A stretch of DNA of 64,000 nucleotides from Lucinisca nassula (taxonomy: Eukaryota > Mollusca > Bivalvia > Lucinida > Lucinidae): NCBI GenBank assembly GCA_963580285.1, contig OY757011.1, forward strand, positions 166,809,406-166,873,405, given 5' to 3'. Below the pieces are notes generated by a model, which worked only from the letters and a program-made list of their open reading frames with translations, had not been told where the DNA came from and searched no databases. How positions within the stretch are numbered: the first letter of the stretch is position 1; every line of letters starts with the position of its first letter. Below, in pieces: positions 24,652 through 64,000 of the stretch. The translations under genes and the position numbers were made by a program.

Positions 24652-25065
24652 CAAAATATAAATGAAGGCAATGATCAGGAATAGATGCAATCAACCCACA
24701 GCTCCCATCAGAGACACCAAAGGGAAAGAAACACAAACATGAAACAACAGATCCTAATGGAAACATCAACTGCGGAAAGCCAAAACGGACAGTTACTTTC
24801 TCACAAAAGTGCCAACTGGCTACCCAAAACAAAATAATATACGCGACACAAACACTTGAGACAAACCATAACAAAAATAAACTGCGACAGAAGAACCACC
24901 TTGGAACGGTCAGTAAAATGAACTCCGCTCCGCTGGGGGAGTGGGGGGGGGCTTAAATCAACTTTTCACGGCCACATTCCTCGCGATTACTTCCGTCGCG
25001 ATTTAGACAAATAATTTGTTCATTCCGCATGAAGGCTTTCTAACTCATCAGTGCAACATCTCATA
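24652..25065 (-). mobile_element. Naiad-type PLE 3'-end copy, 5'-truncated
   Basis: The reverse complement of 62,480-62,860. GAAGGCAATGATCAGGAAT marks the 3' terminus, AGAGACACCAAAGGGAAAG the mid UTR, and CCTTGGAACGGTCAG and GTCGCGATTTAGACAAATAA the upstream UTR. It contains no coding sequence. A G-run at 24,938-24,952 corresponds to the variable poly-C of the UTR. Confidence 0.85.
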
Positions 25066-28785: not shown

Positions 28786-29451
28786 ACCATGTCAACCGCA
28801 GCTGTCTTCATGACTCATACAGCTTTCATCATGATTCAGTTAGCTGTCATCATGACTCATGGAACTGTCACCATGAGTTAAACAGCTGTCATCATGACAC
28901 ATACATTTATCCCCACGAATCATATAGCTATCTCGGATACGCCTGTATTACCTTGGCCCATACAGCAATCACCATGACTTATACAGCTATCAGCACGACT
29001 AATACAGCTACCACAACTACTCATGCAGCTGTCAAGATAAATCATCGAGTTCTCACTATAGCTCACACAGCTATCACACAGCTTTCACCATGAATCATAT
29101 TTTAGAATAATTACTCTTATAGCTATCACCATGATTCGTACTGCTGTAATTATGTGCCATACAGCTGTCCCCATGATTCATATACCGTAGCTAAGCTACC
29201 ATCATGAATCATATAACTACTCTTACAGCTGCCATCTTGGCTTATACAGATATCAGAGTGACCCATGCAACTGTCAACAAGGCCATTAAACTGTAAAAAT
29301 TGACTTATACAGCTATTACTATGACCAGTTAGTGTACTACATGTATCTAACAATCTTCAAGCCAAAAATGCATGTTGGAGAGGTACAGATAAACTCCTCG
29401 TTTTTCATCACTATAAGAATATAAAAATATTCAAGTGTATATATATATAAC

Positions 29452-29832
29452 TGCGGCCTCTGCATTCATCTTGTGGAAGGAAGTTCATTCAAATTTAACT
29501 GTGGAATTGACTTCACGGTGCATGAAAACATGACCTGCGAAGTCAAAAACGTTATCTACGTGATGATGTGCAGGGGCTGTGGGGAGGAATACATTGGGGA
29601 AACAGGCAATTTTCTGCGTAAGCGAGTCACTATCCATAACCAGCAGATTAGAGACCCCCGTACCAGAATGCTGCAAGTCAGTGGGCACATCGATGAATGC
29701 GCTGGCGACTTGAACCCTAAATACTACATCTTCCCCTTTTATAAGATGTACTCAGAAAGTACAACACTACGACGGGCTAAGGAAAACGCATTCATCAACA
29801 GTTTAAAACCCAAATTAAACAGGGCTAGTTAG
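29452..29832 (+). pseudogene. GIY-YIG endonuclease end of a Penelope-like retroelement (5'-truncated)
   Basis: The reading frame opens CGLCIHLVEG, giving the Cys pair of the zinc-binding CCHH signature. NVIYVMMCRGCGEEYIGETG follows, with GIY-like IYV and YIG itself. Next is LRKRVTIHNQQI with the catalytic Arg, a SGHIDECA segment, and an RRAKENAFINSLKPKLN end carrying the metal-binding Glu, then TAG. This is the typical C-terminal endonuclease of canonical Penelope-like elements. No reverse transcriptase precedes it, because the upstream sequence is a short TA run and class A minisatellite. The copy is therefore a 3'-end remnant. It differs from the Naiad-type protein at 59 kb, whose endonuclease is N-terminal. 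The first codons are chosen by homology and there is no supported start. Confidence 0.8.
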
Positions 29833-31271: not shown

Positions 31272-31790
31272 AAATTAGAAGTGGAGGCAATGATCAGGAA
31301 TCGATTAAATCAACCCACAGCTCCCATCAGAGACACCGATGGGAAAGAAACACAGACATACAACAACAGATCCCGATAGAAACATCAATAGCGGAAAGCC
31401 AAAAGGACAGTTACTTTCCCGCAACATGGGCAATAGGCTATCCAAAATAAAATAATATAAGCGGCACAAACACCCAAAGACAAACCATAACAAAAATAAA
31501 CGGCGACAGAAGAACCGCCTTGGAACGTTCAGCGGAAACGAATTCCACTGGTGGGGGTGGGAGGATTAAATCGATTTTACGTGGCAACAATCCTCGCCCT
31601 TACTCCCGTCGCGATTAAGACATAATTTGTTCAGTCCGCATGAAGGCCTCCTAACTTATCAGTGCAACATCTCCGTGAACACAAAAAATCAAACAGCCAC
31701 AGAGATGAAACAACGGTGAGGACTCACAGCAAGAAACCACTGAAATGCTGGAGCAAAAGAAAACCAACAGTTACATTCTGATGGCCAAGT
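31272..31790 (-). mobile_element. Naiad-type PLE 3'-end copy, 5'-truncated
   Basis: The reverse complement of 62,350-62,860, from TAGAAGTGGAGGCAATGATC (3' terminus) to GGAGCAAAAGAAAACCAACAG and CATTCTGATGGCC. It includes the CGCAATATGGGCAATAGGC-like and CCTTGGAACGTTCAG blocks. UTR only. Confidence 0.85.
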
Positions 31791-36259: not shown

Positions 36260-36599
36260 ATCTTCTTTCTTATGAATATTTTCATTGCTCTTAAAGGAAC
36301 TCTTTTTTTTAATTTTATTTGCCTTCACTGCAGCTGGTGTTGTGCCGTGTGGCGGCCGTAAAACGTCTCCCCGTACATCAACCATAGTGCAGTTTATATT
36401 TTACTTTTGGTCCTTTGAGATCAGCGTGAATATTCTGAGAAATCAGAAATAAATTATTAGTTTAGACTCAAATTCTAGACAGGTTTTCAATTATTTGGAC
36501 CTCATTTATTTATTCATATCAGTCTTTGAATCGACTGCTTATTCGAAATTCGCTAAATTGCAGTATGCTTCCTCTGGCTTTCGTTGCCGGATCATTACA

Positions 36600-36645
36600 G
36601 GGTCACTGATGAGGCTTTATTAGCCGAAACTACGTAGTATGACCC
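36600..36645 (+). ncRNA. Hammerhead ribozyme, type I, intact core
   Basis: Stem I 5' strand GGGTCA (36600-36605), catalytic box CTGATGA (36606-36612), stem II GGCT/AGCC closing a TTATT loop (36613-36625), GAAA (36626-36629). A very short stem III follows (ACTA/TAGT around CG, 36629-36638), then cleavage residue A36639, and stem I 3' strand TGACCC (36640-36645). Stem I pairs perfectly over 6 bp and every invariant core base of the family is present. The tiny stem III is typical of animal hammerheads that fold best as dimers, which suits a tandem template. Confidence 0.88.
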
Positions 36646-38506: not shown

Positions 38507-38780
38507 AAGCAGAAGTGGAGGCAATGGTCAGGAATCGATACAATTAACCCACAGCTCCCATCAGAGACACCAAAGAGAAAGAAACACAAACATGAAACAA
38601 CAGACCCCAATGGAAACATCAACAGCGGAAAACCAAAAGGACAGATACTTTCCCACAAAATGGCCAATAGGCTATCCAAAATAAAATAATATGAGCGACG
38701 CAAACACCCAAAAACAGTTCATAACAAAAATAAACCGCGACAGAAGAATTGGAAAGGTCAACGGAAACGAATTCCACTTA

Positions 38781-38812
<32 letters not shown>

Positions 38813-39030
38813 CTTAAATCGATTTTACGTGGCCACAATACTCGCCCTTCCGTCGCGATTTACACAAATAATTTGTTCAGCCCGCATGAAGGCCTCCTTA
38901 CTCATCAGTGCAACATCTCTGTGAACACAAAAACTCAAACAACCATTGAGATGAAACAACGGTGAGGACTCGAAAGCAATAAACCAATGAAATGCCGGAG
39001 CAAAAGAAAACCAACAGTTAGACTCCGGGG
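38507..39030 (-). mobile_element. Naiad-type PLE 3'-end copy, 5'-truncated
   Basis: CAGAAGTGGAGGCAATGGTC through AGAGACACCAAAGAGAAAG, GAATTGGAAAGGTCAACG and GAGCAAAAGAAAACCAACAG. The reverse complement of 62,350-62,860. The UTR homopolymer is expanded to about 18 G at 38,796-38,813. Confidence 0.85.
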
Positions 39031-42560: not shown

Positions 42561-42576
42561 CGCTAAAGATAGTATT

Positions 42577-42750
42577 TAGCACCCAATTTCGTAAAATCAT
42601 TCTTCGATATAAAAAGATAGGGTACAACATGGATATTATACGACAGACTGCATGCATGGTAGTCAACCCAATCACAGTTGGCAACTTTGCTTCCCTCTTA
42701 ATTGCACGCCGGTGGATCAGGCCTCAGATCCTATGACTGTTCCAACGTAA
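42577..42750 (+). pseudogene. C-terminal remnant of Naiad-type RT ORF
   Basis: Same frame as FRKIILRYKKIGYNMDII of the intact copy, through ACMVVNPITVGN. One T is missing in CTCTTAATTG (CTCTTTAATTG in the 62-kb copy), which shifts the frame just before the C-terminus. The ancestral TAA is at 42,748-42,750. Confidence 0.78.
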
Positions 42751-43046
42751 AGGCTTATTGAGAGTTAGAGAGATCTAATTCAAGGTAATGTTGATTGGTG
42801 CCTGATGCTCTGTCTCTCGTCGGGCCCATCGGAGTCTAACTGTTGGTTTTCTTTTGCTCCAGCATTTCAGTGGTTTCTTGCTGTCGAGTCCTCACCGTTG
42901 TATCACCTCTGAGGTTCTCTGATTATTTGTGTACACGGAGATGTTGCACTGATGAGTTAGGAGGCCTTCATGCGGACTGAACAAATAATTGTCTAAATCG
43001 CGACGGAAGTAAGGGCGAGGTTTGTGGCCACGTAAATCGATTTAAG

Positions 43047-43070
43047 CCCCCCCCCCCCCCCCCCCCCCCC
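43047..43070. repeat. Poly-C tract (24 C) in Naiad 3' UTR
   Basis: The homologous position in the intact element has six C (about 62,577-62,582). Other copies have about 14-18. Confidence 0.95.
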
Positions 43071-44554
43071 AGTGGAAATCTTTCCACTGACCGTTCCAAG
43101 GCGGTTCTTCTGTGGCGATTTATTTATGTTGTTGTTTGTTACTTATTGTGTGTATCAATTGTGTCTTTTTATTTTGGATGGCCATATGGCCATTTTGTGG
43201 GAAAGAAACTGTCCTTATGACCTTCCTTTGTTTAGGTTTCCATTATGGTCTGGTCGCTTAATGTTTTTTTGTTTCCCTTTGGTGTCTTTGATGGGTGGAG
43301 TAAGTTAATTGCATCGATTCCTGATCTTTGTTTTACTTCTACTTTGCTGTCAATCCAGTTTCACACACAAAACCTATCATCTCAGTTTTCACAACTGTCG
43401 TAAAAGAAAGGTAAAGCAGTAAACACCTCTTATTTACAGCTGTCACCAGAAGTAGTCACAGCTATCACAACAGGTAATATGGCTGCCACTGAGGTGCACA
43501 GCTGTCATCACAGGTTATATAACAATCACCTCAGTTTCACAGCTGGCAATATAGGTAGTATGGCTATCACATGATTTTCATAGCAATCAAATTAGGTAAC
43601 ATGGCTGTCGCCTTAGTTTTACAGCTACTACCACAGATTATATCATTTTTAGCTGAGTTTCTCAGCTTTCTTAATTGATAGTTTGATATTCACAGGTAAT
43701 ATGGCTATCACATTACTTTCTCAGCTGTCACCAAAGATGGTATAAATATCACATCAGACTTACAGCTGTTACCACAAGATATATGGCTATCATCTGTGTT
43801 TCACATCTGTCGTCCATAGGTAATATAGCAATCACCTGTGTTTCATCATTGTCACCAGAGGTAGTATGGCTATTACTTGAGTTTCACAGCTATCACCTCA
43901 GCATCACACTTATTACCACAGGTAGTATGGCTATAGATTCAGTTTCACAGACGTCACCACAGGTAATCTCGCTATAATCTGACATTTACAGTTGTCACCT
44001 CGGGTGATATGCTATCACCTCGTATTCAAAGCTATCACCACAGGAAAACAGCTTTCACCACATGTAATATAGCATTCATCTGTGTTTCACAATTGTCACC
44101 ACATGTAGAATGGTTATCACCTGGGTTTCAAAGCTACCACCAAAGGGATATAGCTATCACATTAGTTTAACAGCTGGATTTCACATCAGAGTTACAGCTG
44201 TCACCACAGAAATATGTCTATCACCTCATTTTTACAGCTATCGCCAGAGACAGAATAGCAATCACCTGTGTTTCACATTTTTCACCAGAGGTAGTATGGC
44301 TATCACTTGAGTTTCACAGCTATCACCTCAGCATTACATTTATCACCAAATGTAGAATGGCTATCGCATCGTTTCACGGCTTTCAACATTGGTAATATGA
44401 CTACAATCTGAGTTTTACTTTATCACTGCATGTACGATGCTATCACCTCGGTGTCATAGCTATCACCATAGGACATCAGTTTCACCGGTGTCATCAATGT
44501 TATATAGCAGTGACCCGTGTTTCTCCATTATCGCAACAGGTAGAATGTCCATCA

Positions 44555-45992: not shown

Positions 45993-46495
45993 TCGAGTCT
46001 AACTGTTGGTTTTCTTTTGCTCAGGCATTTCAGTGGTTTCTTGCTGTCGAGTCCTCAGCGTTGTTTCATCTCTGTGCTTGTTTGGTTATTTGTGTTCACG
46101 GAAATGTTGCACTGATGAGTTAGGAGGCCTTCATGCGGACTGAACAAACTAGTTGTCTTAATCGCGACGGAAGTAATGGCGAGGATTGTAGCCACGTAAA
46201 ATTGATTTAAGCCCCCCAGTGGAATTCGTTTCTGCTGACCGTTCCAAGGTGGTTCTTCTGTCGTGGTTTATTTTTGTTATGGTTTGTCTTTGGGTGTTTG
46301 TGTCGCTTATGTTATTTAATTTGGATAGCCTATTGGTCATTTTGTGGGAAAGTAACTGTCCTTTTGGCTTTCCGCTGTTGGTGTTTCCATTAGGGTCTGT
46401 TGTTTCATGTGTGTTGATCTTTCTCTTTGGTGTCTCTGGTGGGAGCTGTGGGTTGATTGTGTCGATTCCTGATCATTGCCTCCACTTCTATTTTA
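45993..46495 (+). mobile_element. Naiad-type PLE 3'-end copy, right arm of inverted pair
   Basis: GAGTCTAACTGTTGGTTTTC through TGATGAGTTAGGAGGCCTTC and GCCCCCCAGTGGAATTCG to GATCATTGCCTCCACTTCTA. It is plus strand and directly joined to the minus-strand copy at 45,749-45,992, so both 3' termini point outward. The 177-codon ORF across it is non-coding UTR. Confidence 0.85.
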
Positions 46496-53192: not shown

Positions 53193-53505
53193 ACGGACTT
53201 GTACATTCCATGCTTTTAGGCTCTGTTGTATATTCCCTGCTTCCAAATAAGCCTTTCATAGAGCATATTTGCTGTGACTATAGCTGGCGTTAATGGAGTG
53301 TGTGGCGGTCGAAATCTGTCTCTCCGCCTTTCGTCACAATGTATCTTATATTTTCTTGTCCTACGGGATCATTGGTGGAATTTTGAAAATATTTCAGGGC
53401 CACTGATGAGACCTATTTGGCCGAAACTGGCTGTTCTGGCCCAGAAAACTTGTGCATTCCATGCTTTACGGATTAGTGTTTATTCCTTGCTTTCAAAGGA
53501 TAAGG
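53193..53505 (+). mobile_element. Retrozyme copy, variant X
   Basis: ACTTGTACATTCCATGC to CTTTCAAAGGATAA with GTGTGGCGGTCGAAATC and hammerhead GGGCCACTGATGAGACC (about 53,397). Its right end is joined to a Naiad 3' fragment. Confidence 0.7.
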
Positions 53506-53753
53506 CGGCTCTTCTGAAGCGATTTATTTATGTTGTTGTTTGTTACTTACTGTGTGTATCACTTGTGTCTTTTAATTTTGGATGGCCATATGGCCATTTT
53601 GTGGGAAAGTTACTGTCCATACGGCCTTCCTTTGTTTAGGTTTCCATTATGGTCTGGTCGCTTAATGTTTGTATTTCTTTCCCTTTGGTGTCTTTTATGG
53701 ATGGAGTAAGTTAATTGTATCAATTCCTGATCTTTGTTTTACTTCTACTTTTC
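53506..53753 (+). mobile_element. Naiad-type PLE 3'-end copy
   Basis: GGCGGCTCTTCTGAAGCGAT through GGCCATATGGCCATTTTGTG to GATCTTTGTTTTACTTCTAC. Colinear with 62,612-62,860 and visibly closer to that copy than to the others. UTR only. Confidence 0.85.
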
Positions 53754-58469: not shown

Positions 58470-59153
58470 TTGAATTCAGCAGTTTCACAGCTGTCACCAC
58501 AAGCTACGTAACTAACACCTACTATCATAGCTATCACCACAGGTATTCATAATTCTGCCCCATTTCACAGCTGCCACCATTGGTTAAATGGCCATCACCG
58601 TTGTTTCACAGATATCACCAAAGGTTATTTAGTTTTCAGTATAGTTTTATAGCTGTCACAACAGACAGCTCAGCATCACAACAGGAAAATCGGTATCAGA
58701 GCTTTCTCAGTGTGTTATTTTGATTTCAGCACAGTTTTACAGCTTCAGAACAGATAACATAGCTGTCAACATAGTTTCACAGCTATCACCACAAATTATA
58801 CAGATTTCATTACATTTTCACAGCTGTCACACAGATACTTGGCTATCACCAAACTTTCGCAGGTATCACCTCAGGTTATTCAGATTTCAGCACAGTTTCA
58901 CAGCAGTCACCACAGGTTAATATGTGGCTATCCCCACAGTTTGCCATCAATCACCACGGGCTATTTAGATTTCAATACAATTTCACAGCTGTCACCCCAG
59001 ATTATTAATATTTTAGCACAGGTCAAAACTGTCACCACCGGTCGCCTGGCCATCGCAACAGTTTCACAGCTTTTTTGTACTATTTCAGGACCCCTTAGGT
59101 TACACTCTGCTTCTTCTGTACGGATTCCCCATTCTATTAAGAACTTTAATACT

Positions 59154-62100
59154 ATGTTGCCTTCGGTATTGGTTAGACCCTTAAATTTGTCTTCTGTAAC
59201 TTCAGTTAATCTCAAAGGAGCAGGCAATACCAATGTTTTTGGGAGTAGTCTTCGTATAAGACTATCTCCTCTCAAATCGCCCATCCTTCGAAAATATACT
59301 AATCCGTGGAAAAGAAGTGGAATGTATCCTAGCATTTCTAAGTGCAATGCCAAGAGGTGCAGATGTTGTTCGCATTTAAGCACTGCGTCTACCGTTACTT
59401 CATCTGTAAACGGTAGACGCTTCTCTGTAGTTAACATGTCTGATTTGACATGACAGTCTACAGATTTAATTTATCTAATTACTTGACGTGCTGCAAACTG
59501 TAATATGCAGTACGTCGGTCAAACTAACCGCATGCTTAAAACTAGATTGAACGAGCATTATCGTAGAATGAGTAAGCCTAAGAAAACTGACACTTTCTTG
59601 TACCGTCACTTTCGACGTACAGGTCATTCTGTAAATAACATTGTTATACAACCAGTGGAAAAACTTTATTACGATGCAAATTCTACAACTAGATTCAAAA
59701 TAATCAAAAGACATGAAGCTGAACTGAAATGGATTAAATTTTTACAGACCCCTTTTCCACTGGGATTTAATGACAACATTTATCATGAGGGTAATATTTC
59801 CAGAATGCCGGACTTTGATATTTTCTCACTCCTGGAATGTCGAAAACGCAGAACTAGATCTCACGGCACCAGGAAAAATGGTAACTTTAAACGTAAATCA
59901 CGTGCGTTTAAACGAAACAATACTAGACTGAAGTGACTGTCTATTATATTATTAAATCATGGACGCCACTCTATGCTTTCATTTTTAAGTTCATTACCCG
60001 TTTCTGTTTTACGTCTTCTGGACACCGAGGCGAATAAATTCTACGATAGTTCTCATCAGTTATATGATGCGGCTCTCTTAACTAGAGGCTATACTCAGCA
60101 TACTCTCCGTCCTTACATTGATTCTGAAATTAATCATAAACGCCATTTCTTCAAAATATCCTTCATTAATAAGGGTATGGATTTTATAGATTTGCCCAGT
60201 ATCTTCCGTGAGAGATCCGTACTTTCTTCCATTCCTGCTTATTTTCAAAATACTGAAACACCTATAATTTGCTATAAATATAACAAACCTGTTAGATCTA
60301 TCATTTTTAATTTCAATAAACTTGTTTCAGATCTTGATATTGATACTAATACTCCTGATTCATGTGATTGTAAAAACTCAAAGTATTGCTATTCTGCTGC
60401 TGGTCATGTAATTACTGGCAATTTGAAAATTATTCCTGATTCAAGGATAAGGAATATAATTTCTAAAGGACCGAAATATCGGTTTCCTTCAAAAATTGAT
60501 TTCAGTAAATGTAGAGATGAAATCGCTGCTTCATTGAATGAATTCGGTAATCGATGGTGTAAGCGAGAGTATGTTGAGCATAAAGCCCTTAAGGACTGGA
60601 AACTTAGCATTTTAAAACTAGTGAATAAACGCATTTCTTTCTATTCTCAAAATACTAACTTATTACCTCCTAAGCCCAAGACGTCTTTACGTCATCTTAA
60701 ACTAGGTATTCAAGAATTTCATAAGAAGTTTGTTTTGGCCCCTGCAGACAAGGCCGCTAACAACGTCGTCGTTGTGTGACGGCTCCACTATGTTAACACG
60801 CTTAAGCGGGAGCTTGGTGGTACTAAGGCCTATGAACTTCAGCCTTTAGCTGAAGAGAGAGCTATAGTAGATAAACATGTTTGTCTTTCAGCCACCAAGT
60901 TTGCTGTGTGTGTTAACGAAGGCCAAGACAAGCTTCCTACGCTATACTGGTTACCAAAACTTCATAAAAAACCTTACAAAGCACGGTTTATTGCAAATTC
61001 TAGCTCTTGCACTACCACTGAACTTTCTAAATTATTAACTTCCTGTCTTACTGCTATTAAAACGCATGTAATTAAATATTGTGATAAAGTCTTTGAAAGA
61101 TCAGGAAGAAATCTGTTTTGGTCTATAAAAAATTCGAATGATGTTTTAAATAAATTGAAATCTAGACAGTTTCGTGCTTCTAGTCTGTCTACCTACGATT
61201 TTTCCACTCTTTACACTACACTTCCTCATAATCTTATAAAAGAAAAGCTTAATGATTTAATTGAATGGGCTTTTCACAGAGAAGATTCTCTCTATCTTGC
61301 ATGTAATGTCAGAAATGCATTTTTCACTTCTAAAGAGCATAAGAATTATACACTTTGGTCATGTCAGAAAGTGTGTGATGCCCTCACCTTTCTACTTGAC
61401 AATATTTATATTAGATTCGGTACTAAGTTATTTAGACAAATTGTGGGTATACCGATGGGTACTAATTGCGCACCTCTTGTGGCTGATCTGTTCTTGTATT
61501 GTTATGAAAGAGACTTCATTTTGTCGCTTTCCATTGATAACCAATCTGAAATTATTGAAGCTTTTAGCTCTACTTCTAGATATTTAGATGATTTATTAAA
61601 TATTGATAATACCTATTTTGATGGTTTGATCAGTCAGATTTACCCCCTAGAACTTCAGTTAAATAGGGCAAATTCTTCTGATACCGAGGCCCCGTTTTTG
61701 GATTTACATCTATCTATTGTAGATGGATTTGTTTCGTGCAAAATTTATGATAAACGCGATGACTTTGATTTTGAGATTGTAAATTTTCCTTTTTTGGATG
61801 GTGATGTTCCTCGTGCGCCATCCTATGGCGTTTATATTTCGCAATTAATTCGATTTGCTAGAGTGTGTAGTCATGTAACTGACTTCAACACTCGTAATAA
61901 ATTATTAACGGCTAAACTCCTTAATCAGGGTTATCGGTACCATAAACTACGCAAAGCCTTTTCAAAATTTTATAGACGCCATTCTGATTTAATTTCAAAA
62001 TTCAATATTGGACTTAAATCTCTTCTGCAACAAGGTCTATCGGAACCCGAATTTTATGGTGACTTAGTATTTAAATTCAGAAAAATATATAACCGCAATG

Positions 62101-62279
62101 ACTTCAGTACCCAATTTCGTAAAATTATTCTTCGATATAAAAAGATTGGGTACAACATGGATATTATACGACAGACTGCATGCATGGTAGTTAACCCAAT
62201 CACGGTTGGCAACTTTGCTTCCCTCTTTAATTGCACGCCGGTGGGTCAGGCCTCAGATTCTATGACGGCTCCAACGTAA
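59154..62279 (+). CDS. Naiad-type PLE polyprotein: GIY-YIG endonuclease + reverse transcriptase, putative selenoprotein
   Basis: The protein would nick target DNA and copy the element RNA by target-primed reverse transcription. The frame is uninterrupted for 1,041 codons if TGA is read through, and stops at TAA. Visible motifs: Cys cluster CNAKRCRCC (residues 64-72); GIY-like IYLIT (106-110); YVG (120-122); catalytic Arg in LKTRLNEH (131); CxC linker SCDCKNSKYC (403-412) followed by GHVITG; RT fingers YWLPKLHKKP (598-607); motif A YDFSTLY (Asp 682); motif B GIPMGTNCAP (765-774); motif C YLDD (810-813). In-frame TGAs are at residues 100, 111, 261 and 542 (59,451, 59,484, 59,934 and 60,777). 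Residue 111 is the Cys of the usual IYLITC, residue 100 that of the preceding TC, and residue 542 follows ANNVVVV, where Cys is normal. Clam Naiads with multiple selenocysteines have been reported, which supports recoding. The alternative is a pseudogene with four nonsense mutations. The start at 59,154 is the first in-frame ATG downstream of the minisatellite. Confidence 0.85.
59451..59486 (+). other. Two in-frame TGA codons, putative selenocysteines 1 and 2
   Basis: TGA at 59,451-59,453 (after MSDLT) and 59,484-59,486 (after IYLIT). Only ten codons separate them and both fall at the Cys positions that precede and end the GIY strand in Penelope-like endonucleases. Confidence 0.75.
59934..59936 (+). 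other. In-frame TGA codon, putative selenocysteine 3
   Basis: Follows NNTRLK at the end of the basic segment after the endonuclease. The frame continues LSIILLNHG. I cannot confirm from memory that the family has Cys here. Confidence 0.6.
60777..60779 (+). other. In-frame TGA codon, putative selenocysteine 4
   Basis: Falls in DKAANNVVVV-TGA-RLHYVNTLK at the entrance to the RT. Cys is the usual residue after VVVV in Penelope-like RTs. Confidence 0.75.
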
Positions 62280-62862
62280 AGGCTTATTGAGAATTAGAGA
62301 GATCTAATTCAAGGTAATGTTGGTTGGTGCCTGATGCTCTGTCTCTGGTCGGGCTCATCGGAGTCTAACTGTTGGTTTTCTTTTGCTCCAGCATTTCAGT
62401 GGTTTCTTGCTGTCGAGTCCTCACCGTTGTCTCACCTCTGTGGTTCTTTGATTTTTGTGTTCACGGAGATGTTGCACTGATGAGTTAGGAGGCCTTCATG
62501 CGGACTGAACAAATTATTTGTCTAAATCGCGACGGAAGTAGGGGCGGGGATTGTGGCCGCGTGGGGTCGATTTAAGCCCCCCAGTGGAAATCTTCCACTG
62601 ACCGTTCCAAGGCGGCTCTTCTGTGGCGATTTATTTTATGTTGTTGTTTGTTGCTTGCTGTGTGTATCACTTGTGTCTTTTAGTTTCGGATGACCATATG
62701 GCCATTTTGTGGGAAAGTGACTGTCCTTGTGGCCTTCCTTTGTTTGGGTTTCCATTGTGGTCTGGTCGCTTAATGTTTGTATTTCTTTCCCTTTGGTGTC
62801 TTTTATGGGTGGAGTAAGTTAATTGTATCAATTCCTGATCTTTGTTTTACTTCTACTTCTGA
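62280..62862 (+). promoter_or_regulatory. Naiad 3' UTR (expected to hold a SECIS element)
   Basis: The region between the TAA and the element end. It is shared, in 5'-truncated form, by the copies at 24.65, 31.27, 32.38, 38.5, 39.1, 42.6, 45.7, 46.0 and 53.5 kb. Conserved blocks are TGATGAGTTAGGAGGCCTTC, CGACGGAAGTARGGGCG, the poly-C run, GACCGTTCCAAGGCGG, GGCCATTTTGTGGGAAAG and CCCTTTGGTGTC. ATGA occurs near 62,477 and 62,690, but by eye I could not build a convincing SECIS stem with the AA loop. Confidence 0.5.
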
Positions 62863-62864
62863 TG

Positions 62865-63195
62865 AGGGTAATTGGGCGAAACAAGTTAGTTTTGCCAAGG
62901 AATACATGTATACTTTATGCATTTCATAGAACACATTTGATGTGACTATAGCTGGCGTAAAGGGAGTGTGTGGGGCCGTAAAATGTATGCCCGCCTTTCG
63001 TCATAGGTAGTTTATATGTTCTTGTCCTTCGGAATCATTGGTTTACTGTGGAATTTTGAAATTATTTCAGGGCCACTGATGAGGCCTAATTGGCCGAAAC
63101 TAGCTGTTCTGGGCCAGAAAACTTGTGCATTCCATGCTTTTCGGATCTGTTGTTTATTTCTTGCTTCCAAAGGATAGAACATATTTCCGGTTGGT
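62865..63195 (+). mobile_element. Retrozyme copy directly abutting Naiad 3' end
   Basis: Begins with a degenerate hammerhead-like start, CTGATGAGGGTAATTGGGCG then AAACAAG, within a few bases of the Naiad terminus. Continues through GTGTGTGGGGCCGTAAAATG to a second hammerhead at 63,070. Confidence 0.72.
63070..63115 (+). ncRNA. Hammerhead ribozyme, near-intact core
   Basis: GGGCCA, CTGATGA, stem II GGCC/GGCC around TAATT, GAAA, CTAGCTGTTC, TGGGCC. The core and stem II are perfect. Stem I and stem III each carry mismatches. Confidence 0.65.
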
Positions 63196-64000
63196 GTTTT
63201 TGAATTCAGCAGTTCCACAGCTGACATCACATGCTACGCGACTAGCACCACAGTTTCACAACTATCACCACAGGTTATTTATAATTCTGCATCGTTTCAT
63301 AGCTGTCACCACAGGTTAAATTGCCATCGTCGCTGTTTCACAGATATCACCACAGGTTATTTAGTCTTCAGTATAGTTTTATAACTGTCACAACGGAAAA
63401 CTCGCAATCACAACAGATAATATGTTCTATAAAAGGGTTATCCTTTGGAAGCAAGGAATACACAACAGAAGTGAAAATATGGAGTGTACATGTTTTCTGG
63501 GCCAGACTAGCTAGTTTCGGCCAATAAGGCCTCAGTGACCCTCAGATATTTTCAAAATTCCACAATGGAATCAATGATCCCAAAGGACAGGAAAATATAA
63601 TCTACACTATGATGTAGGGCAGGGAGACGTTTTACCGCCGCCACACATTCCCACACACCAGCTGTAGTGAAGTTAAATATGTTCTATAAAAGGGTTATCC
63701 TTTGGAAGCATCACCACAGGTTTATAGCTTTCACAAAATGTTTTTTTTTTATTTCAGCACAGTTTCACAAAAGATAACATAGCTGTCACCACAGTTTCAC
63801 AGCTGTCACCACAGATTAAAGATTTCAGCACTTTTTCACAGCTGTAACACAGATACTTGGCTCTCACCAAATTTTGGCAGGTATTACCACAGATTAATCA
63901 GATTTCAGCACAATTTCACAGCTGTAACCGAAGGTTATGTGGCTATGACCACTGTCTTACAGCTACCACCACGGGTTATTTATAATTCAGCACCGTTTCA
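63196..64000. repeat. Class C minisatellite continuing past the window edge
   Basis: 41-bp units (GTTTCACAGATATCACCACAGGTTATTTAG and relatives) flank an inverted retrozyme at 63,420-63,705 and run to the last base. Confidence 0.85.
63420..63705 (-). mobile_element. Retrozyme copy in minus orientation, tandem start
   Basis: TATGTTCTATAAAAGGGTTATCC occurs at 63,421 and 63,678, giving a 257-bp monomer. On the minus strand the ribozyme region reads GGGTCACTGA then GGCCTTATTGGCC, GAAACTAGCTAGTC and TGGCCC. The TGA of the catalytic box is deleted, while stem III and the GTC cleavage site are perfect. Confidence 0.72.

Follow-up and report, generated by a model that had tools for sequence, protein, structure and literature searches.

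The Naiad clade of Penelope-like elements was reportedly defined by Craig and colleagues in 2021, and selenoprotein Naiads are said to occur in clams and spiders. Naiads combine an N-terminal GIY-YIG endonuclease, a CxC motif and a reverse transcriptase (RT) with a telomerase-like fold, and contain several in-frame UGA codons. High copy number and tandem copies are further features of the clade, as is an insertion-in-fingers domain of the RT, and its elements are not known to carry a hammerhead ribozyme. Among the papers searched, none joined the terms Naiad, Penelope-like and selenocysteine (Sec), one (PMC10941475) combined Naiad with Penelope-like, and none of the titles listed concerned a selenoprotein Naiad. 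Among selenoproteins with many Sec residues, bivalve selenoprotein P carries more than 130, according to excerpts of articles that relate the original report (Baclaocos et al. 2019; via PMC8744743, PMC8230778). A SECIS element inside the coding region is described for fowlpox virus GPX4, again in excerpts of citing articles (Mix et al. 2007; via PMC8310308, PMC6769590), one of which states that all cellular counterparts of such coding-region elements lie in the 3' untranslated region (3'UTR) (PMC8310308).

The locus analyzed here lies in a 64,000-nt stretch of the genome of the bivalve Lucinisca nassula (the window; features in Table 1). Judged from its sequence and from its relatives, it is very probably a copy, truncated at its 5' end, of a Naiad-type retroelement that is abundant and was active recently, and the UGA codons 100, 111, 261 and 542 of this family would be read as Sec by means of one SECIS.

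Table 1. Features of the element copy and its relative in the window (homologue counts are among the matches listed)
Feature	Position	Strand	Remark
Older 5'-truncated relative, 90.7% identical	42575..43344	+	Frameshift; weaker predicted fold of SECIS stretch
Naiad-like Penelope element copy, 5'-truncated, in 41-bp satellite array	59090..62858	+	
ORF through four TGA codons, 1,041 residues, TAA stop	59154..62279	+	
TGA codon 100	59451..59453	+	Cys in 37/37 distant homologues covering site
N-terminal GIY-YIG-type endonuclease region	59460..59753	+	About residues 103-200, limits approximate; from homologues
TGA codon 111	59484..59486	+	Cys in 39/39 distant homologues covering site
TGA codon 261, lineage-specific by alignment	59934..59936	+	Mostly Asp in close relatives
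Reverse transcriptase region, telomerase-like predicted fold	60279..62153	+	Approximate limits: residues 376-1000
Codon 404, Cys (TGT), opening the CxC pair	60363..60365	+	Residue 403 is the last one in 48 relatives
TGA codon 542	60777..60779	+	Cys in 92/95 distant homologues covering site
YLDD motif of reverse transcriptase	61581..61592	+	Residues 810-813
SECIS-like element	62252..62343	+	Rfam SECIS_1 24.1 bits, below gathering score 35
3' untranslated region of element	62280..62858	+	

A long frame with four in-frame TGA codons

Read from position 59154 with TGA taken as a residue, the frame encodes 1,041 residues and closes with a TAA at 62277-62279. Re-reading of the sequence bore out what the initial annotation had described: TGA is present at codons 100, 111, 261 and 542 exclusively, and the frame contains no TAA, TAG or frameshift up to its end. 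Among the matches listed, close relatives can be aligned along its course with an identity of roughly 60-80%, and the same four TGAs recur in each of the 44 full-length copies that were scored; the frame is therefore not a product of chance. It had also been proposed that random decay would hardly yield TGA alone. A null model of nonsense mutation in this frame sustains this expectation, giving a chance of about 0.008-0.009 that all four nonsense codons produced by random point decay are TGA, and of about 1e-4 to 3e-4 for four TGAs with at least three on Cys codons.

If the whole organism used a variant code in which UGA denotes Cys or Trp, the occurrence of UGA at Cys positions would be expected, and some homologues listed with Trp at codon 404 or 542, maybe through translation of UGA as Trp, would agree with it. 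However, the same frame encodes Cys by TGT 17 times and by TGC nine times, the predicted proteins of relatives from other sources terminate at these sites, and the genome contains strong tRNA-Sec matches. We therefore consider a variant code extremely improbable.

Domain organization and element class

Searches of the query protein against Pfam and NCBIfam returned no match, and the PDB sequence search gave insignificant matches only with the single protein and none with the alignment. Homologues that align with the query are more informative: P0055, P0063, P0085 and P0123 have a Pfam GIY-YIG match above cut-off within residues 32-226, followed in the first three by a sub-cut-off RVT_1 match. 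The best structural matches of the predicted model are telomerase reverse transcriptases, at about 9-14% identity and with low Foldseek TM-scores of 0.23-0.32 by query length (telomerase rows 1-15); on the strength of this model, the RT appears to be related to telomerase. The single ORF of the family would accordingly be arranged as an N-terminal GIY-YIG endonuclease, a CxC linker and a telomerase-like reverse transcriptase, and the window element presumably belongs with the Naiad Penelope-like elements, whose GIY-YIG endonuclease, CxC motif, telomerase-like RT and tandem copies it shares.

Conserved cysteines and protein ends in relatives

The homologue set consisted of the best 120 of 431 matches, the best 120 of 823 matches and 15/15 matches from a third search; the counts in this section are among the matches listed. 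Distant homologues have Cys at codon 100 in 37/37, at codon 111 in 39/39 and at codon 542 in 92/95 cases. Codon 100 or 111 is covered by none of the best 120 of the 823. The claim that three of the TGAs occupy positions at which homologues have Cys is thus upheld. At codon 261, Asp predominates among close relatives: of the 117 reaching the site, 84 have Asp and five have Cys. A stop is present at this codon in the window element, as it is in the relatives P0203 and P0221; a FastTree phylogeny built from 170 rows places these two with the window element (support 0.76). By these alignments, the codon-261 TGA is specific to the lineage of the window element and marks no conserved Cys. The CxC motif is formed by C404-D-C406, at which Cys is present in 82/85 and 84/87 distant homologues, respectively. 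Close relatives that read through codon 404 have Trp in seven of eight cases and Leu in one, and Cys in 0/8.

The termini of the homologous proteins point to the same sites. Among 252 proteins, 48 end at residue 403, two at residue 260 and one at residue 541, and 66/252 have as their first residue Met 118, the Met that follows codon 111 most closely; this last group includes at least one distant homologue (P0053). Searches of viral and genomic contig collections for DNA of the relatives gave no match. We infer that the protein ends of relatives from other genomes at these sites correspond to TGA stops.

Inefficient reading of UGA by near-cognate tRNAs, such as those for Trp, Arg or Cys, without Sec and with graded longer products, deserves consideration at this point. 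Stop-codon readthrough occurs in animals, UGA followed by C is a leaky context for it, and the base after UGA is C at all four sites. Such decoding is nonetheless difficult to reconcile with three of the four UGAs standing at invariant or nearly invariant Cys, with relatives that stop before another conserved Cys (404) and with the presence of a SECIS-like element, and four leaky codons in series would leave little full-length enzyme. This kind of readthrough is accordingly judged unlikely, and Sec remains the preferred reading of these codons.

Trp at codons 404 and/or 542 was found in P0007, P0008, P0009, P0014, P0019, P0024, P0025, P0034 and P0039. Besides a true replacement, two other origins of this Trp are possible. 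The unaligned tails of the Trp group taken together are rich in Trp (30/677 vs 61/4,964 residues), so that some of these Trp residues may be UGA translated as Trp; other proteins, P0017, P0167 and P0210, are A-to-G hypermutants, and TGG is therefore expected from TGA in those three.

A-to-G hypermutated relatives, recognized at the protein level only, comprise P0031, P0017, P0191, P0167, P0222 and P0210. Between P0031 and P0014, 133 of 141 differences are explicable by A-to-G alone and one by G-to-A alone; between P0017 and P0008, the corresponding numbers are 104 and 0 of 114, likewise at the protein level. To judge from these translated differences, the pattern looks like ADAR-type editing before reverse transcription. 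One homologue, P0205, is labelled as coming from a metagenome-assembled genome of Candidatus Thiodiazotropha, which is a clam symbiont.

Retention of TGA in sibling copies

Sibling copies were sought in the element's own genome (2,926,205,003 bases in 696 contigs). Three sets were ranked by protein score and hence represent the best protein matches only: 44 full-length copies with 99-100% protein identity, in every one of which the stops within the frame are precisely four TGAs; 71 copies scored over residues 424-1041, each with one TGA; and 136 copies scored over residues 118-403, again each with one TGA. In addition, 56 loci were examined, which have TGA at every covered site, TGT at codon 404 and TAA as the stop. 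Their blastn-aligned parts contain no other stop, partial matches being seen in the aligned part only, and a 1-nt deletion is present in the coding part of three of the 56. In one locus, L016, codon 203 reads TAA and is accompanied by gaps, immediately beyond the part aligned by blastn; this is perhaps the border of a truncated copy.

Genome-wide exact patterns were added as counts without protein-score ranking; they detect exact flanks plus TGN only, so that changes in codon bases 1-2 or in the flanks go uncounted. At codon 100, TGA occupies 2,366 of 2,446 exact-pattern places, the other 80 being 44 TGG and 36 Cys codons by manual count. At codon 111 it occupies 1,539 of 1,545, three of the six others being one Cys variant in a tandem array. 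The corresponding counts are 145 of 146 at codon 261, with a single TGT, and 5,830 of 5,869 at codon 542, with 26 TGG and 13 Cys codons among the other 39. The share of TGA among TGN at these exact-pattern places is thus 96.7-99.6% per site, and no large Cys lineage is therefore seen among copies with these exact flanks. The initial annotation had set the sharing of TGA positions by other genomic copies against siblings with Cys codons and scattered disruptions; the former is what was found, the scored full-length copies being clean throughout and TGA prevailing in the pattern counts.

The Cys variant of codon 111 consists of TGT in place of TGA at C16:64835283, 64839434 and 64843585, with a spacing of 4,151 nt, and is apparently a local Sec-to-Cys change that was amplified in tandem. 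Neighboring tandem copies also lie 4,158 nt apart on contigs C12 and C4.

The window by itself might suggest that the copy has decayed and owes its TGAs to ordinary nonsense mutation, as it is 5'-truncated and an older relative in the window is clearly decayed. Yet the same four TGAs are retained in all scored full-length copies and at nearly all exact-pattern places, the aligned parts of the 56 loci lack any other stop, and a SECIS-like element is situated at the end of the ORF. Decay would also require that all copies stem from one dead master amplified by the enzyme of another element, and it ranks among the least credible explanations.

Selection and age of the family

For 48 coding sequences without gaps, 41 of them distinct, a pS of 0.0120 and a pN of 0.0015 were obtained, giving a pN/pS of 0.12 that is biased low because the copies were ranked by protein score. 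In the same copies, the divergence of the 3'UTR is 0.0080, and variable sites at codon positions 1, 2 and 3 number 42, 34 and 123, counts that are biased as well. Pairwise differences among copies range from 1 to 69 over 3,705 nt, with a median of 12, and the family has therefore moved recently. In view of this low divergence, the suggestion of possible recent activity is better applied to the family than to the window copy, which is 5'-truncated and may not be active.

A SECIS-like element across the stop codon

A SECIS_1 match at the end of the ORF is the only match to a SECIS family that the 64 kb yielded at E-values of up to 10. The absence of a SECIS from the transcript had been named as an argument against Sec; a SECIS-like element was found, but its 24.1 bits are below the Rfam curated score of 35. 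The E-value is 0.26 when 5.5 kb are searched with 4,227 families, which by division corresponds to about 6e-5 for SECIS_1 alone. The hairpin straddles the stop codon: AUGA at 62262-62265 falls within the final codons, AAA at 62278-62280 coincides in part with the TAA, and UGAU occupies 62332-62335. Its apical insert is 39 nt long vs 11 in the model, which is accounted for by an extra apical hairpin, and its fold is modestly better than that of shuffled sequences (z -1.48; 16 of 200 shuffles as good).

Comparison of copies and relatives provides further information on this stretch. Positions 62246-62349 are unchanged in 47 of the 56 copies, a deletion within the apical hairpin is present in three of the 56, and each of the two core arms is variable at 1 of 22 sites vs 80/515 in the 3'UTR beyond. 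The C-terminus reads SMMxxT in 16/16 relatives that end level with the query among the matches listed; because two consecutive Met codons contain AUGA, this motif is always present in them. P0028 and P0066 end six residues earlier, so the stop would precede AUGA there. In the older copy at 42.7 kb, the motifs are kept, whereas the fold is weaker (-16.8 vs -23.3 kcal/mol), and no SECIS match was obtained in that copy.

Searches of the genome with the tRNA-Sec model (RF01852) gave two strong matches of 80.0 and 77.4 bits at a cut-off of 47, and seven weaker ones just over the cut-off that are probably other tRNAs. The same search also produces matches in 14/14 control genomes, over the cut-off in five.

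The mRNA of the family would most likely be translated by the selenocysteine machinery of the host, with Sec inserted at UGA codons 100, 111, 261 and 542 under the direction of the one SECIS at the ORF end. As a guess from conservation, Sec may replace structural or metal-binding Cys residues of the endonuclease and the polymerase. Sec decoding would account jointly for the TGAs, the copies, the SECIS-like element and the homology, whereas decay, readthrough and a variant code each fail on several points. The initial annotation had called the element a strong candidate for a further multi-selenocysteine Naiad, an assessment strengthened by TGA retention in copies, Cys in homologues, the SECIS-like element and the tRNA-Sec matches.

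The position of the hairpin also prompts a speculative and rather doubtful proposal: a ribosome that passes the four UGAs and reaches the end of the ORF might unfold the very SECIS that enables its passage, which would constitute a self-limiting switch of retrotransposition. If this were true, production of the full-length enzyme would be tied to selenium supply and ribosome traffic, in an ORF with thousands of genomic copies.

Borders and surroundings of the window copy

The left border was placed at 59090, where exact identity with locus L002 ceases 64 nt upstream of codon 1, and the right border at 62858, a 3' end common to other copies beyond which the flanks differ. In longer copies such as L002, translation shows the frame extending upstream, where in-frame ATGs lie at distances of 33 and 73 codons from the start at 59154; if one of these upstream ATGs is the start, the window copy lacks it.

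When 62103-62858 is compared with the older relative at 42575-43344, the differences are skewed: at 17 sites a G of the main copy faces an A of the relative, and at three the reverse holds. Further pieces of the 3'UTR are located at 24669-25062, 31273-31783, 38507-39027, 45995-46493 and 53502-53750. A different Penelope-type GIY-YIG endonuclease fragment, with ordinary Cys codons and 26% identity to the query, is present at 29425-29832 on the forward strand.

Core patterns of the hammerhead ribozyme occur on the forward strand only, at 36606, 51361, 53403, 55151, 55716, 56097, 57483, 62859 and 63076, which amounts to nine observed vs 0.14 expected, in a satellite-rich part of the window. The pattern at 62859 adjoins the 3' end of the element, and all nearby cores are outside 59090-62858. 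Rfam Hammerhead_3 matches at 36581, 55691 and 56072 are all below threshold, and a scan of 58500-64000, which covered the 5'-truncated copy without its 5' part, gave no hammerhead up to E 10.

Implications and comparison with known systems

Selenium-using mobile elements of clams and spiders have reportedly been described before, and what is new here is probably a well-supported further member. The many near-identical copies of a four-UGA ORF within one genome constitute a natural data set on the retention, loss and gain of Sec codons, as exemplified by codon 261, which was gained, and codon 404, which is Cys in the window element and a stop in relatives. The findings suggest that mobile elements of this host depend on its selenium machinery, and a SECIS that overlaps the stop codon makes it possible to test directly how such an element works within translated sequence.

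Each of the known systems resembles the window element in part. Telomerase reverse transcriptase differs from the window enzyme in that the latter is a retroelement enzyme with an endonuclease. Molluscan selenoprotein P, as portrayed in the excerpts cited above, is similar, on the Sec reading proposed here, in that numerous UGAs of a single mRNA are translated as Sec, but its protein and function are unrelated to the window element. Fowlpox GPX4, as outlined in the corresponding excerpts, resembles the window element in the overlap of its SECIS with coding sequence; unlike that element, however, it is a viral peroxidase whose SECIS lies inside the frame, whereas the SECIS-like element described here straddles the stop. 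Naiads correspond to the window element through the GIY-YIG domain preceding the RT, the CxC motif, the telomerase-like RT, the high copy number, the tandem copies and the presence of several UGAs. The window element may depart from described Naiads in the codon-261 UGA at a non-conserved site, in the SECIS-like element overlapping the stop codon and in having Cys where its relatives stop, at the first Cys of CxC.
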